Shown here: positions 4,216 through 48,269 of the stretch, piece after piece
Position numbering within the stretch: position 1 is the first letter of the stretch
Layout of the letters: each line of letters starts with the position of its first letter
Assembly (NCBI RefSeq): GCF_030167915.1
Contig: NZ_JARGNB010000001.1
Coordinates: forward strand, 992,001-1,056,000
DNA length: 64,000 nt
Source: Aquabacterium humicola
GTDB lineage: Bacteria > Pseudomonadota > Gammaproteobacteria > Burkholderiales > Burkholderiaceae_C
Reading direction: 5' to 3'
Notes under the pieces: model-generated
Database searches by the model: none
The model's input: only the letters and a program-made list of their open reading frames with translations
Told to the model about the DNA's origin: nothing
Program-made: the position numbers and the translations under genes

Positions 4216-7200
4216 CCTTCTGCCGGGGCCGCTGCGGTCGGAGCCGCAGACGCTCGAGCCGCTGCACACCGCCGTGGCACGCGGGGCAAAGTGGCCATCA
4301 CCGCGGCGCCCTCGGCAGGAATCAGTGTGGGTGCTCAGCGCGGCGCAGCCAATGGGCGGCTTCGGCGGACTCGAACCGACTTCGAACGAGGACAGCAAGA
4401 TCAACGTCTTCGAACAGCACGACGTCCACCTCGCGTTCCTGTACCAGGATGAGTCTCCTCGTGGAACGCCAGGACCTTGGCTCTTGCGCCTCGAAGCCTT
4501 GGAGGCGGAGTGGTTCGCCGCCGTCTGGCAGGTGCTCAAGACGCAGTTCGGCGGCGATGCGCTGCAGACCACGCTGGCGGCAGCGCTCGGCGGCCAGTCG
4601 ATCCAGGCCGGCCACCCCCAGCTTCCACCGGACGTGCGGCGGCGGCTGTTCGAACTGCACCTGCGCTACATGACCCGCACCATGCTGGCTGGCGATCCGG
4701 CCCCGGTCGGGCTGATCGAGCTGCTGGCGGGCGACGCGTTCATCGACCGCGATGCCCTGCGTGAGGGCGACTGGTTCGTCGTGGAGTTCATTGCCGGCCC
4801 GCCGTTGGACCCGCTGCGTCAGCCGGAGGATGAGGGCGAACTCACGTACGCGCCCCTGGGCCTGACCCGCGCGCAGGACGGCCCACCGCGGCTGTGCGAC
4901 CTGCTGCGCATCGAGCCCTTGGCGCGGCTCGACCCACCCTTGCACGCAATGCTGCAGGCGCTGCACTTCCCTCAGCCTGATCCCGATGCAAAGCCCGGCC
5001 ACGCTGCGCCGCCAGGGGGAACCCCGGGAGGCGGCGATCCGGTCCTCGCGGTCGACCTGCAGGGCACGCTCTACTGGCACACCGACAGCGGCGTTGTGCC
5101 CATCAGCGGCCCGGCCGGGGCCTCGGCCGCAATTCCACCATCCGGCGGTTCGCCACCATTGATGCGCCAGTTCGCACGGGCGAACAAGCGGCGCCGTATC
5201 GACGTGGGGGGAGGAGCCGGCTTGCCCGCCGGCGGCGGCGGCGGACCCCCAGTGGGTGGCGCGGGTGGCGCTCCGGTCGGGCTGCCCGCGGTGGGCGGAC
5301 CACCTGGGGGCGGCCCGGCGGTGGCCGTGGCGCCGCCGCTGAACCCGATGGCGCCGCACCCGGGCGCGTTCCAACCCTTCGTCGGCGCCAACTTGGTCGG
5401 CGCTGGCAACAACATCGCGCTGTACGACCGTGCCGGCCGGATCGTGGCCTTTGTCGACTATGGCCTGCCGACGAACGTGAACATCAACACCTATCCGGCG
5501 GCGGCGCCCGACCCCTGTGTCTGCGACGACCCCCTGATGGTGCTATCGCACTGGGACTACGACCACTACGCGATGGTGCGGCAGGTGCCTGCCGCATTGA
5601 GGCGACGCTGGATCGCACCGCAACAGGTCTTCGGCAGCGTTGCAGGGCGCGAGCTGTATGTGCGCCTCCTGGTCGAAGTGCCCAATGGCGCGGCGCTACA
5701 ACTGTGGCCGACGCCCGGGGTCGCTGCCGTGCCAAGCCACCTGATGACGCCGTTCGGGTTCGCCGAACGGGCCACCGGCCCGGCTGTCAATGACGATGGC
5801 ATCGTGATGTACGTGCGGGTGCAGGACGATCCAGCCGCGATTCCGGCCGCCGCCATGCCTCCAGGCTTCGGGGCGCGGGTCGCTCCCGCGGTCGCGGTGC
5901 CGCCGGGCATGGTGCCCGGCATGGTGCTGAACACCGCCGTCATCGTGACGCCGCCTGTCGCACCCGGATTCATCGACGGCGAGTGGGTGGACTACATGCT
6001 GGCCGGGGTCTTCAACCCGGCGCTGGTGGCGATCGCAGCTGTGGCGGGCGGCGGCCTTGCGCCTCCGGCGGCCGCTCAACCTGCGGGGTTCGGCCAGGTG
6101 CTGGTAGCCACCGGCAACATGGCCTTGTGGATTCCGCCCGCCGGGGCGCCTCTGCCCCCGGCCGTGGGCGGCAACTACGTGCCCAGCGTCCCCAGCGCGC
6201 TGGGATGGTGGGCGGTCAGCGCGGCCGACTTTGTGGCGCTGGGCGGTTTCATTGTTGATTTCCCGCCGGCTGCCACCGGCGCCCCGCACCAGCACATGAT
6301 GTGCTTGTCCCCGACGCCGGGCAGCAACTGGCTCCCAGTGGCGGCGGGCCTGCCGGGCGCGCCCGGGGCGCTGCCAGCGCCGGGCGCCCTGGTGGTGCCT
6401 GCGGTCGGCCTCGCCGCCGGCGCCGCAATGTGGCAACCCATCTGGGGCGGCGGGGCCGGCGCGTGCTGGGCGATTCCTCTGCAGCCGGTGGCTGCGGCCG
6501 CCATTCCTCCGCTTCCCGGTGGGCCAGCGGCGCTGCCGACGACACCCGGCGCCGCCCCGGTGACACCGCAGGAGCGCTATGTCGTGCTGCCGGGCGATGC
6601 GGGCTACCACCACCTGCCCGCGCTTGCCGGCTGGCCGGCGGCACTTGCCGCTGCGGGAGGCGCGGCGGCCGCCGGCGCCGTGCCGTTGCACGCGGTGGGT
6701 TTGGTCGCCACGCACCACGGCTCTGATAGCTGGATCCCGGCCGCTGGCGCCGCCGCGGCCTTGCAGCACATCCCGCTGGAGCCCGGCATCGCGGGCGTAC
6801 TGGCCGCCCCCGTCGCAGCAAGCGACAAGATCGTCTACTCGTACGGCACACGCATCGGCGGGCCCCACAACGGCGCGCACTGCTATGCGGTGGGCGGTCC
6901 GGGTCATCCGCGACCTGCGGCGTTGGCGGCCTATCAGGCCAATGGCTGGGGCAACGCCCCGGTGCTGCCGGCACCGCCCGTGACGTCCACCTTCCACCGC
7001 CTCGACACCGCTCCGCATGACTTCGAAAGTGCGCAGCCCTACGACCCCTTGCCCGTGGCCGTCCCCGCCACGCCTGCACAGGCCAACGCCCAGGGGCATC
7101 TGAACGGCAACGTGGCGCTGGGATGGGATGCATTGGCCGGTGGTCCGCTCACAGGCGACCACTTTCCGCCAGCGCATGTCGCGGCGGCCGCGCCCGGCGC

Positions 7201-44918: not shown

Positions 44919-45578
44919 ATGAAGAACACGCTCCTGGCCGCTTCCCTCCTCGCCCTGCTGCAGGCCGCCGCCCACGGCGGGCAGGTGCAGATCAGCGTCA
45001 CGACGCCGGACGGCCAGCCGGCCGCCGACGTCGCGGTGATGGTGCATCCCACGGCCGCATGGACCGCGCAGCCGCTGCCCGAGCCGGTGGTGATCGCGCA
45101 GCGCAACATCCGCTTCGTGCCCTTCGTGACCGTCGTGCCGGTCGGTGCGACGGTGCGCTTCGTCAACCAGGACCGCTTCGACCACCACGTGCGCTCGCAG
45201 CCGGGCGGGCCGCTCGGCAACGTCGCGCCGGCCAGGCAGTTCGAGTTCCGCATGGCCGCCGCGGGCAAGGACCCCACGCCGGCGGACCTGAAGATGGACG
45301 TGCCCGGCACCGTCGCCCTCGGCTGCCACCTGCACGGCTCGATGCGCGGCCATGTCGTCGTCAGCACGACGCCGTGGTTCGCGGTCACCGACGACAAGGG
45401 CGTCGCGACCATCGCCGGCGTGCCCGACGGCCAGGTCGAGCTGAAGCTGTGGCATCCCGAACAGCTGAGCGACCAGGCCGCGATCCGGCTGCAGGTGGCG
45501 GGCAGCGCCAGCGCCGACGCCAGGCTCAACTTCGCGCCGCGCCGCCGCGGCGCCGCCGCACCGCCGCCGCGGTACTGA
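44919..45578 (+). CDS. Secreted cupredoxin-like copper protein
   Basis: 219 residues. Signal peptide about 1-20, then a plastocyanin-like fold: VTVVPVGATVRFVNQDRF, a His pair at 89-90 and the Cys136-His-Leu-His139-x-x-Met142 loop (GCHLHGSMRG). These match type-1 copper ligands (His, Cys, His, Met). A carboxypeptidase-regulatory-like tail (about 150-200) follows, then a basic Pro-rich end. It resembles methylamine-utilisation-type plastocyanins of proteobacteria. The last 53 bases overlap the convergent cohesin gene. Electron transfer in the periplasm is likely; its partner is unknown. Confidence 0.78.
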   Translation: MKNTLLAASLLALLQAAAHGGQVQISVTTPDGQPAADVAVMVHPTAAWTAQPLPEPVVIAQRNIRFVPFVTVVPVGATVRFVNQDRFDHHVRSQPGGPLGNVAPARQFEFRMAAAGKDPTPADLKMDVPGTVALGCHLHGSMRGHVVVSTTPWFAVTDDKGVATIAGVPDGQVELKLWHPEQLSDQAAIRLQVAGSASADARLNFAPRRRGAAAPPPRY

Positions 45579-46176
45579 GGGCGGCGACGAGCGCGGCGGC
45601 CAGCAGCGCTCCGGCAGGGGGTTCGTCGATCGCGATCGTGACGTTCTGAACCATCACGCCGCCGATCGCATCGCCCACCTGGTCGGCGAGCATCAGGTCG
45701 GTGAACTGCAGCGTCGTGTACGCACCGACCCCGGTCCCGGTGCCGTGGAACAGCAGGGTGGCCAGCAGCAACGGGCCACCGGACTGCAAGTCGTCGAGGT
45801 AGGGCCCGACGCAGAACGCGCAACCGAGCGCCGAGCCCTCGAGAAGCGAGACCTCGACCAGCGTGATCTGGCCGAGCCAGAAGGCGTCGACGACGTCGAC
45901 CACCGTCTGCGCCGCGTCCTGCGGATCGCCGAGCGCCTGGCCCACGGTCACGTCGTAGAGCGTCAGCATGGACGGGTCGTAGTGCAGCGACAGGTCGATG
46001 CCGGCCAGCTGCGTGCCCGGCGCCAGCCCGGACAGCACGAGGTCGACCTCCAGCGCCTCGGTGCCGTGCACCTTGGTGCGGTCCGGAATGAACTGCAGCA
46101 CCGGTCCGGCGTGTGCGGCGGCAGCCAGCACGACCGCCAGCAACCCGGCGGCGAGCGAATGGATCAGCGTTCTCAT
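45526..46176 (-). CDS. Secreted cohesin-domain protein with PEP-CTERM-like tail
   Basis: 216 residues. Signal peptide about 1-23 (LLAVVLAAAAHAGP). Residues about 27-180 have cohesin character: strand VLQFIPDRTKVHG, GIDLSLHYDPSMLTLYDV, VGQALGDP, and closing TTLQFTDLMLADQ. The tail is IDEPP, a hydrophobic helix and RRRRGG (about 184-210), a loose PEP-CTERM sorting signal. Cohesins bind dockerins in a calcium-dependent way. The next gene upstream on the same strand codes a protease ending in a dockerin-like module, 17 bases away, so the two likely bind each other at the cell surface. Its 3' end overlaps the copper protein gene by 53 bases. Confidence 0.75.
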   Translation of the reverse strand: MRTLIHSLAAGLLAVVLAAAAHAGPVLQFIPDRTKVHGTEALEVDLVLSGLAPGTQLAGIDLSLHYDPSMLTLYDVTVGQALGDPQDAAQTVVDVVDAFWLGQITLVEVSLLEGSALGCAFCVGPYLDDLQSGGPLLLATLLFHGTGTGVGAYTTLQFTDLMLADQVGDAIGGVMVQNVTIAIDEPPAGALLAAALVAALSTAAAVRRRRGGAARS

Positions 46177-46193
46177 CGAAGGTCCCTGTGAAG

Positions 46194-48269
46194 TCACTTG
46201 GCACAACCCGGATGCGCGCAGCGCAGCATCGCCTTGCGTGCATCGAGGATCGTGATTCGGCCGTCGCGGTCGATGTCGCGCGGGTCGCTGCGGCACAGCG
46301 CCGGCCCGCGCATCGACAGCGTGATCGCCGTGATGTCGTCGCGGTCGACCTGGCCGTCCTGCAGCACGTCGCCGTTCTGCAGCACGTGGTTGCAGGCCGC
46401 GACCTCGGGCGCGCCGACCCCGATGAAGCGCACCGGATCGACCGCGGCGATGCGGGTGAAGCTGCCGTTGCCCAGGCGGTCGAGACGGAATTCGACCGGG
46501 CCCAGCGAGCTGCCGGCCGGGCCGGCGTAGTACATGAACATCACCGGCAGCGGGCCGTTCAGGTCGAACTGGGGCAGCGCGTCGGTGAAGTCGGCGATGA
46601 AGCGCTGGTCCGGAGCGAATGCCCGCGGGCTGTGTTCGTCCGGGTGCGGCAGCACGTCGGGCGTGCTGAAGCTCGCAAACGACAGCGCGGGAACGCCGAG
46701 CCCGGCCCGCACCTCGCCGTTGGTGCGCTGGCTCGATACCAGCTGCCCGGCCGCGTACAGCCGCGGCCGGTACCGCGCACGGTCCTCGGCGGTCACCGCG
46801 TCGATGTGCGCCCTCGCGTAGTCGTAGGCCACCCAGAAGAAGCCGTTCGACGTGCCGCCGGCGGTGTTCGGCACGCCCCACTGCGGCGAGGCCGAGTTCG
46901 CCATCAGCAGCGCACCGCGGCGGTTCTGTCCGCTCGCGTCGACATAGGGCCGGTCGTCGTCGTAGCCGACGATGGTGACGGCGTGCCCGCCGGAAAGCTT
47001 GCCGCCATTGTCGTAAAGCACATCGTTGTTCATGCCGGGGCAGTCGACGCCGGTCTGCTGGCAGCCGCGGTCCCAGCCCCAGTGCATCACGTTCTCGTAC
47101 TGGATGAAGGCCGAGGCCGCGATGCCGCCGTTCGCGAGATGCTGCTTGAGCGCGTCGAAGCCGGCCGGGCTGGTCATGTCGAAGAACGCGCTCGATGCCG
47201 TGCGGCGCGGCAGCGCCTCGATCCACTGCGCCTCGGTCGGCCACCCGTACACCACGTCGTCGAAGCGCCACGGGTCGTACGGCCGCGACTGCCAGTTGCC
47301 GATGCCCCAGCGCTCGAGGGCATTCATGCCGTCCCACAGCGAGCTGCCGCCGTCATCGGTCGTCCACTGGCCGTCCTTGCCGAAGGCCGCCCACTTGATC
47401 AGCGGGTACAGGAAAGCGGGACTGGCGATGTGCTCGGTCGCTCGCGACGGCCGCGGCGGGGCGATCGTCTGATTGCAGGCATCGAACTTCGCGCCGTCCC
47501 AGACGTGCTGCCCGGGGTTGGCGGGATCGGGGCTGGAGATCGGGCAGTCGGGCTGGCCGGTGCAGCGCAGCACGAAGGCGCCGACCGGCGGTTCGGCGCG
47601 CGCGACATGGCACTCGGGGTCGCGGGGCAGCCAGGTGCCCGAGACGTCGAGGCCTTCGTCCATCGCCTGCGTGTAGGTGGCCCAGTAGTAGCCCACCGAC
47701 CAGGCGACGCAGGAAGCGCGCCCCTCCTGGTCGCCGATCGGCGGGAAGTGGTGCGACAGGCTGTTGTCGACGGCCGCCGGAAGGCCGGCGGCCGCGCCGG
47801 CCAGCAGGGCCCGCCGCCTCGACAGCGCGTTCGGCGCCGGCTTGGCCACGCGCCCGGCGCGGGCCCGTTGCGCGTCGGTGGCGCCGCTGGTGCAGTGCCG
47901 AGGCATCAGCGCGACGCGCTCCTGCGCCGACATCGCCGGCTGCAGCGCACGCGCGGCCGCTGCGGCGGGTGCTGGCACCGCCAGCGGCTGCACACGCTCG
48001 ACCCGGTGGATGCTGCGTGCCGCGGCGAGCGCATGCGGCGGCAGGCTCGCCACCAGCACGTCGCCGGCCGCATAACCCCTGATGACGCCGCCGAAGGACA
48101 CCAGGTTGTCACGGACGCGCAGCACATCGGCGTCGGACGCCGTCCGCGCCAGGTGCACACGCACCGTCACCAGTGCGGTCGCCGGGACCTGCGCCGCCAC
48201 GTGGGGCGCCACTGCGAGCAACGCGGCCGCGAAGGCCAGCCGCACGCCATGCCGATGACCGGTGTCCAT
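46194..48269 (-). CDS. Secreted papain-like (C1) cysteine protease with C-terminal dockerin-like module
   Basis: 691 residues. Signal peptide about 1-27, then an inhibitor/prodomain-like region to about 165. The C1A-like catalytic domain follows: Cys187 in QEGRASCVAWSVGYYW, His429 in GGHAVTIVGYDDD, Asn458 in MANSASPQWG (usual NSWG). A beta-rich domain runs about 500-625. The last 59 residues hold two calcium-loop repeats (DVLQDGQVDRDDI and DIDRDGRITILDARK), the type I dockerin pattern. It is cotranscribed with the cohesin gene 17 bases downstream. The ATG at 48269 has GAAGGGAG 6 bases upstream. Only the dockerin name is an inference; the protease triad is directly visible. Confidence 0.8.
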   Translation of the reverse strand: MDTGHRHGVRLAFAAALLAVAPHVAAQVPATALVTVRVHLARTASDADVLRVRDNLVSFGGVIRGYAAGDVLVASLPPHALAAARSIHRVERVQPLAVPAPAAAAARALQPAMSAQERVALMPRHCTSGATDAQRARAGRVAKPAPNALSRRRALLAGAAAGLPAAVDNSLSHHFPPIGDQEGRASCVAWSVGYYWATYTQAMDEGLDVSGTWLPRDPECHVARAEPPVGAFVLRCTGQPDCPISSPDPANPGQHVWDGAKFDACNQTIAPPRPSRATEHIASPAFLYPLIKWAAFGKDGQWTTDDGGSSLWDGMNALERWGIGNWQSRPYDPWRFDDVVYGWPTEAQWIEALPRRTASSAFFDMTSPAGFDALKQHLANGGIAASAFIQYENVMHWGWDRGCQQTGVDCPGMNNDVLYDNGGKLSGGHAVTIVGYDDDRPYVDASGQNRRGALLMANSASPQWGVPNTAGGTSNGFFWVAYDYARAHIDAVTAEDRARYRPRLYAAGQLVSSQRTNGEVRAGLGVPALSFASFSTPDVLPHPDEHSPRAFAPDQRFIADFTDALPQFDLNGPLPVMFMYYAGPAGSSLGPVEFRLDRLGNGSFTRIAAVDPVRFIGVGAPEVAACNHVLQNGDVLQDGQVDRDDITAITLSMRGPALCRSDPRDIDRDGRITILDARKAMLRCAHPGCAK

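Follow-up and report, generated by a model that had tools for sequence, protein, structure and literature searches.

A recurrent dockerin-cohesin gene pair, with a putative exosortase-sorted cohesin and a dockerin-bearing C1-like cysteine protease, in Aquabacterium humicola

Most of what is known about cohesin-dockerin plugs comes from cellulosomes. In the gammaproteobacterium Aquabacterium humicola, a gene for a cysteine protease that ends in a putative dockerin is followed on the same strand by a gene for a cohesin-like protein, and the question that this locus raises is whether the two products form a complex, and whether the pair is a stray one or an example of something more general. From the comparisons described here we consider it probable that it belongs to a family of one-cohesin/one-dockerin cassettes, in which a cohesin sorted by an exosortase would hold a secreted cargo at the cell surface or in exopolysaccharide. 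The DNA analyzed (hereafter the window) is a stretch of 64,000 nucleotides (C1:992001-1056000); the assembly to which it belongs has 7.39 Mb in 44 contigs. The protease gene (46194..48269, minus strand, stop included) encodes 691 residues, of which 1-27 (48189..48269) are a probable signal peptide, read by eye and without a predictor, and 633-691 (46197..46373) form the dockerin tail as delimited by family profiles and a tail model. After an intergenic gap of 17 bases (46177..46193), with AGGGA ahead of the ATG, the second gene (45526..46176, minus strand, stop included) encodes a single-cohesin protein of 216 residues with a signal-peptide-like start, a cohesin core (45634..46101) placed by core alignment and profile, and a PEP-CTERM-like end. 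This gene order, strand and spacing had been given correctly in an earlier annotation made from the letters alone (the sequence-only reading), and the short gap together with AGGGA suggests one operon with coupled translation.

The identity of both modules was examined with profiles of their relatives from which the four rows of this genome had been removed, leaving 24 dockerin rows and 35 cohesin rows. These were searched, up to an expect value (E) of 10, against the stop-to-stop open reading frames (ORFs) of the window that reach 60 residues or more, 539 in all; the dockerin profile matched the protease ORF at 2e-17 and the cohesin profile the cohesin ORF at 4.6e-19, in each case as the only match. 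Against solved structures, the 28-row dockerin profile found the cellulosomal dockerin 2y3n_B first (1.7e-11), with calmodulins lower down, and the 39-row cohesin-core profile found cohesins first (best 3l8q_A, 6.4e-12). The 39 rows derive from 41 cohesin matches, with L135 and L137 left out; L061, which duplicates the stretch of L084, was omitted, and the rows of L064 and L075 were dropped from the core profile as another PEP-CTERM family. The Cohesin family (PF00963) matches 22 of the 39 cores at E <=0.01, and other families match none of them. By family profile the window protein is a cohesin homologue; a cohesin fold is shown for a homologue of it, and the window protein may share this fold. 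The dockerin tail of two repeats in 59 residues, as described in the sequence-only reading, was borne out by the profile and by two loop-helix calcium motifs; at the ligand positions, which we presumed for both loops, the second loop is complete (D665/D667/D669/D676). A structure prediction, proposed earlier as a check, gave two putative helices for this tail in a block with a predicted local distance difference test score (pLDDT) of 78-96 and of 60 in the last four residues.

The search for further cohesin and dockerin genes that had been proposed showed that this type is represented in the genome by four dockerin tails (profile E 0.01; second profile 1e-4) and four cohesin cores (E <=1e-5), and dockerin and cohesin adjoin in 4/4 cases; since the core profile contains these four cohesins, the genome search adds only that no unpaired cohesin was found. 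The pairs besides that of the window are located at C34:514945/515223, C23:166835/166269 and C23:404002/406915. Two of the other three dockerins pass the cut-off of Dockerin_1 (PF00404), and the cohesin of the C34 pair passes that of PF00963 with 24.4 bits; the cargo of this pair is beta-propeller-like by eye, and Pfam gives EF-hand matches only. At C23:404002-407352 (with its flanks, L012:7000-11508, minus strand) a cohesin, a PEP-CTERM end, a second signal-peptide-like stretch, a cargo and a dockerin share one stop-free frame, possibly a polyprotein for cutting by exosortase and signal peptidase, or possibly two genes with an internal start. The divergence among the four pairs, 58-71% for the dockerins and 72-78% for the cohesins, would fit separate specificities. 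A secretin-like ORF (by eye) at C1:2260310-2260597 (L013:4794-7694, plus strand) is the best PF00963 match of the genome; it is unlisted by the cohesin-core profile, has no dockerin match nearby, and was rejected as another partner. The PF00404 matches on C2 and C41 (15.3 and 13.3 bits) are far under the cut-off and unmatched by the dockerin profiles, and were also discarded.

Outside this genome, an 8-row dockerin profile matched 25 of 399 genomes of the order Burkholderiales (E 0.01), and the 28-row profile, at E 1e-4, matched 41 of the 369 genomes searched in the class. Named genomes, when scanned, yielded at least 10 loci, including those of Aquabacterium, Roseateles, Methylibium, Rubrivivax, Massilia, Accumulibacter and Paraglaciecola. 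In the loci fetched from Burkholderiales and other Gammaproteobacteria, 37 dockerins were classed as strong (script E <1e-15), and a same-strand cohesin lies near 31 of them, downstream in 21, upstream in 9 and in the same frame in 1. Four of the 37 come from loci that were fetched via their cohesin, and without them 27/33 are paired. The spacing is 0.9 kilobases (kb) at L125 and 1.9 kb at L088, and in L124 there is one cohesin for two dockerins. A search of the 399 order genomes with the cohesin core found 14 genomes, 13 of which are among the 25 with a dockerin (Fisher 8e-17); judged by eye, a dockerin match is located no more than 5 kb away from 12 of the 21 cohesins. Since many sequences recovered in these searches are themselves rows of the profiles, all these numbers characterize the type and cannot serve as an independent rate of discovery.

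Some of these loci show particular arrangements. In L060 the whole pair is present in tandem (477-2945 and 4396-6855, plus strand), with identical dockerin tails, diverged cohesins and 84% identity over the joined stretch. In L088 (5314-6513, minus strand) the cohesin-PEP-CTERM frame is prolonged by another signal-peptide-like stretch and a small domain, and a dockerin frame lies about 1.5 kb downstream of this extended frame. In L064 (6184-6984, plus strand) and L075 (6280-7032, plus strand) the dockerin gene is followed by a member of a different PEP-CTERM family where the cohesin would be expected; this family may represent a different socket.

The strong dockerins, 36 of which are distinct, share a further feature. 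The first residue and the 'xRxC' position are both cysteine in 27 and neither is in 9, a single one never being found; L069 is gapped at the first position in the alignment, and its residue there is serine. Likewise, 34 have both cysteines of a later C-x4-C pair and the other 2 have neither, none having just one; in L080, one of these two, the tail runs into other sequence. The strong dockerins are related to each other, and p-values for the cysteine pairs are therefore not to be taken literally. This strict co-variation suggests two disulphides, one of them linking head and tail. The latter can be likened to the intramolecular clasp of cellulosomal dockerins, which is described there as a hydrophobic stacking (PMC4728124). 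Of the two pairs, the C-x4-C pair (Cys684/Cys689) is the only one present in the window dockerin. The two dockerin halves are unlike, which would favour a single binding mode.

How would the cohesin be placed? The last residues of the window protein (184-216, 45529..45627), read by eye and aligned with the tails of relatives, comprise DEPP, a hydrophobic stretch and RRRR, a degenerate PEP-CTERM-like end. Among 27 aligned neighbours PF07589 matches 22 and TIGR02595 matches 16 at E 0.05, and the genome, searched for exosortases as had been proposed, contains two matches over cut-off (1.3e-68 and 4.7e-66). The protease and cohesin genes would be an operon for a two-part exported complex. We infer that each protein would be exported via its own signal peptide and, from family and pairing, that the protease dockerin would fold around calcium and plug into the single cohesin of its neighbour. 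One of the two exosortases would recognise the PEP-CTERM-like end and remove it, in line with proposals for other PEP-CTERM proteins; this step would deliver the cohesin to the surface or to the exopolysaccharide layer, and the protease would be kept near the cell rather than diffusing off. In the general cassette the dockerin and cohesin parts would be constant and the cargo exchanged. The two-part complex of the sequence-only reading, in which the cohesin anchors the protease, is partly upheld: the pairing is strongly supported by the counts in the genome and in the loci, the one shared frame and the two exosortases; the anchor signal of the window cohesin is degenerate.

The same docking could serve another destination: the cohesin would escort the cargo, the exosortase would free it, and the complex would end in an exopolysaccharide or floc matrix or in the medium, and not on the cell. 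In Aquincola a PEP-CTERM protein has been tied to floc formation and bound exopolysaccharide (PMC9850573), so that the matrix has to be taken seriously as an alternative to the membrane; the degenerate anchor end of the window cohesin is consistent with it. The sequence cannot separate cell surface from matrix, and we regard this other destination as possible and rather unlikely.

Several observations weigh against a docked and displayed protease. In the window, residues 633-677 reach 11.7 bits with PF00404 (E 0.32; cut-off 22.9) and the cohesin protein 18.1 bits with PF00963 (E 0.0031; cut-off 24.1), the core alone remaining below the cut-off at E 0.0017; with both modules under threshold, Pfam alone could not settle the claim, and NCBIfam gave no match to either protein at E 1. 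The first calcium loop carries Leu636 at the third ligand position. The PEP-CTERM models PF07589 and TIGR02595 leave the window cohesin unmatched; of the cohesin with signal peptide and PEP-CTERM-like anchor that had been described, the cohesin stands by profile, and the anchor stands as a degenerate resemblance. In the loci, 6/37 strong dockerins have no cohesin nearby (L064, L075, L068, L076, L078 and L080), nor have 12/22 of the weaker matches of the same loci (E 1e-15 to 1e-6), which indicates that pairing is true of the strong type and not of every EF-hand-like tail. In the order, 9/21 cohesin matches lie more than 5 kb from any dockerin match; three strong ones of these sit in genomes G103 and G324, which also carry dockerins without a nearby cohesin, and pairing at a distance is therefore conceivable. 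Dockerin and cohesin distances correlate (r 0.455, 0/10000 permutations), and the nearest neighbour agrees for both in 9/31 (shuffles <=7), a correlation that is uncorrected for species kinship and may be explained by common descent. An intact homologue of the protease is absent from 199 relatives, which yielded 1 broken, decayed fragment, and none was found besides its own genome in 369 genomes of the class, so that the history of this cargo is untraceable. A fused model of the two modules has a predicted template modelling score (pTM) of 0.64, the structure matches listed for it cover the cohesin part, and contact between the modules cannot be read from it.

The unpaired dockerins and cohesins, together with the low scores of the window modules, would also suit two real folds without mutual binding, with the dockerin-like tail as a calcium-stabilised tag for export or stability and the cohesin as a binder of, for example, a sugar. 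The 1:1 pairing in the genome, its occurrence in both gene orders, the shared frame, and a variable cargo with constant ends argue against this reading, which we find doubtful.

To characterize the cargo, 40 dockerin proteins, each from a different locus, were compared with Pfam; this set does not include those of L076, L078, L080 and L123, the second dockerin proteins of L060 and L124, and further ones of the weak class. Proteases are represented by Peptidase_C25 (L079, L087), M12B reprolysin (L082) and subtilase S8 (L126); esterases, phosphoesterases and nucleases by a GDSL esterase (L072), a calcineurin-like phosphoesterase (L077) and endonuclease/exonuclease domains (L069, L130); and adhesins and other cargo by IgGFc_binding (L062, L065, L073, L086, L124), VWA (L066), PKD/cadherin (L067, L074), an RHS protein with PASTA (L121), a sorbosone dehydrogenase (L134) and NHL (L129). 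Several of the scanned proteins have no clear Pfam match beyond the tail. The dockerins of L079, L082, L087, L129, L130 and L134 are weaker ones outside the 37, each with a cohesin match in its locus. For the sequence-only reading a C1 protease would be an unusual dockerin cargo; by the comparison, the window pair is no stray one and belongs to a recurrent cassette with varying cargo, in several cases a protease. No glycoside hydrolase over cut-off was found in the 40 dockerin proteins, the rest of the genome not having been searched for cellulases; L129 has a weak match to Glyco_hydro_2_N (25.9 bits, cut-off 28). With single cohesins in the partners and no cellulase cargo over cut-off among the 40 scanned proteins, a cellulosome was rejected.

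The presence of proteases and nucleases among the cargos, for which a co-produced guard would make sense, could suggest that the cohesin is an inhibitor or export chaperone of the protease and not its anchor. The IgGFc-binding and PKD/cadherin cargos should need no guard, and in the sequence a long stretch separates the docking tail from the catalytic residues; we consider this role very improbable. Chance neighbours, with EF-hand-like repeats next to an Ig-like PEP-CTERM protein that has nothing to do with them, would agree with single-sequence Pfam scores under cut-off and were rejected as scarcely credible on the pairing in relatives and throughout this genome, the profile matches obtained without this genome, and the matches to solved cohesins and dockerins.

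In L067, L121, L123, L078 and the second dockerin of L124, a dockerin of the same type was observed near the start of a very long frame, which contains PKD repeats in L067 and RHS with PASTA in L121, and the cohesin is upstream in 4/5; this arrangement would correspond to docking at the head of the protein and not at its tail.

The catalytic region of the window protease (residues 165-500, 46770..47777) contains Cys187, His429 and Asn458, the residues named in the sequence-only reading, and GDQ at 179-181. A Cys-His-Asn series in C1 order with a preceding Gln is what we take to be the papain motif, and the window protease has it. Peptidase_C1 (PF00112) gave no match to this protein at E 10 and none was found in the genome. 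Residues 165-500 resemble Legionella Lpg2622 (6a0n) at E 0.0017, the aligned part lying around the His and the Asn, and two Leptospira plasmid genes annotated as 'C1 family peptidase' match at E 9e-5 with 27% over approximately residues 280-440. The predicted structure has a mean pLDDT of 45.6, and its catalytic part is poorly modelled. From motifs and weak similarity, the C1-like assignment is likely, not proven.

The proposed cassette can be compared with known systems. In Ruminococcus cellulosomes a sortase is used for anchoring (PMC11557425), and R. flavefaciens has many dockerin-bearing peptidases (PMC2930009). The likeness is to the scaffoldins, surface proteins of a cohesin system placed by a sorting enzyme (PMC11557425); in contrast, the proteins described here come from Gram-negative bacteria, have an exosortase-type end and one cohesin per protein, have their partner gene adjoining, and lack cellulase cargo over cut-off in the scanned set. 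An S8 protease of C. thermocellum carries dDoc_0689, in which the first dockerin has an intramolecular clasp, binds preferentially to a cohesin on the cell and may tether the protease there (PMC12484212). It is likewise a dockerin-bearing protease possibly anchored to the cell, but it has a double dockerin and belongs to a cellulosome-making organism. For freshwater Planctomycetes a 'planctosome' was proposed, a non-cellulosomal cohesin/dockerin complex that would hold peptidases, including M12B, for peptide degradation (PMC6461901); there, a large multi-domain anchor and an adaptor with a lamin-tail domain are involved, whereas each cargo here has beside it a small protein with one cohesin and an exosortase-type end. 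Saccharophagus degradans has cohesin- and dockerin-like ORFs without a classical cellulosome, for which binding tests were proposed, and the text seen describes no gene pairs or exosortase link (PMC2386152). Non-cellulosomal modules have also been counted in archaea of the ANME group (PMC5244752). With PEP-CTERM/exosortase sorting the cassette shares the PF07589 matches of its neighbours and the presence of exosortases, and differs from it in that the sorted protein bears a docking module for a second protein.

In the open-access literature, which does include papers on PEP-CTERM and exosortase together, no paper joining cohesin or dockerin with PEP-CTERM was found, subscription papers and preprints being outside the scope, and for dockerin with exosortase only PMC5244752 was found. 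We lean slightly towards an undescribed modular display system of Pseudomonadota, in which exosortase-sorted single cohesins would be paired gene by gene with dockerin cargos (proteases, esterases, nucleases, adhesins and RHS proteins), a genome would hold several orthogonal pairs, two co-varying cysteine pairs would staple many of the dockerins, and one case would be a polyprotein cut by exosortase and signal peptidase. If this is true, many 'stray' modules of Gram-negative bacteria would have a testable job, PEP-CTERM sorting would be linked to the display of enzymes that themselves lack an anchor, and engineering would gain new small binding pairs, of which some may be orthogonal and stapled by disulphides.

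Two minor features of the window cohesin gene were also observed. A CxxC insertion occurs in 3/39 aligned cores, namely in the window (CAFC, 45811-45822, minus strand), L072 (CVFC) and L124 (CVFC). At its 3' end the gene shares 53 bases (45526-45578) with a convergent plus-strand ORF at 44919-45578, the product of which is probably secreted.

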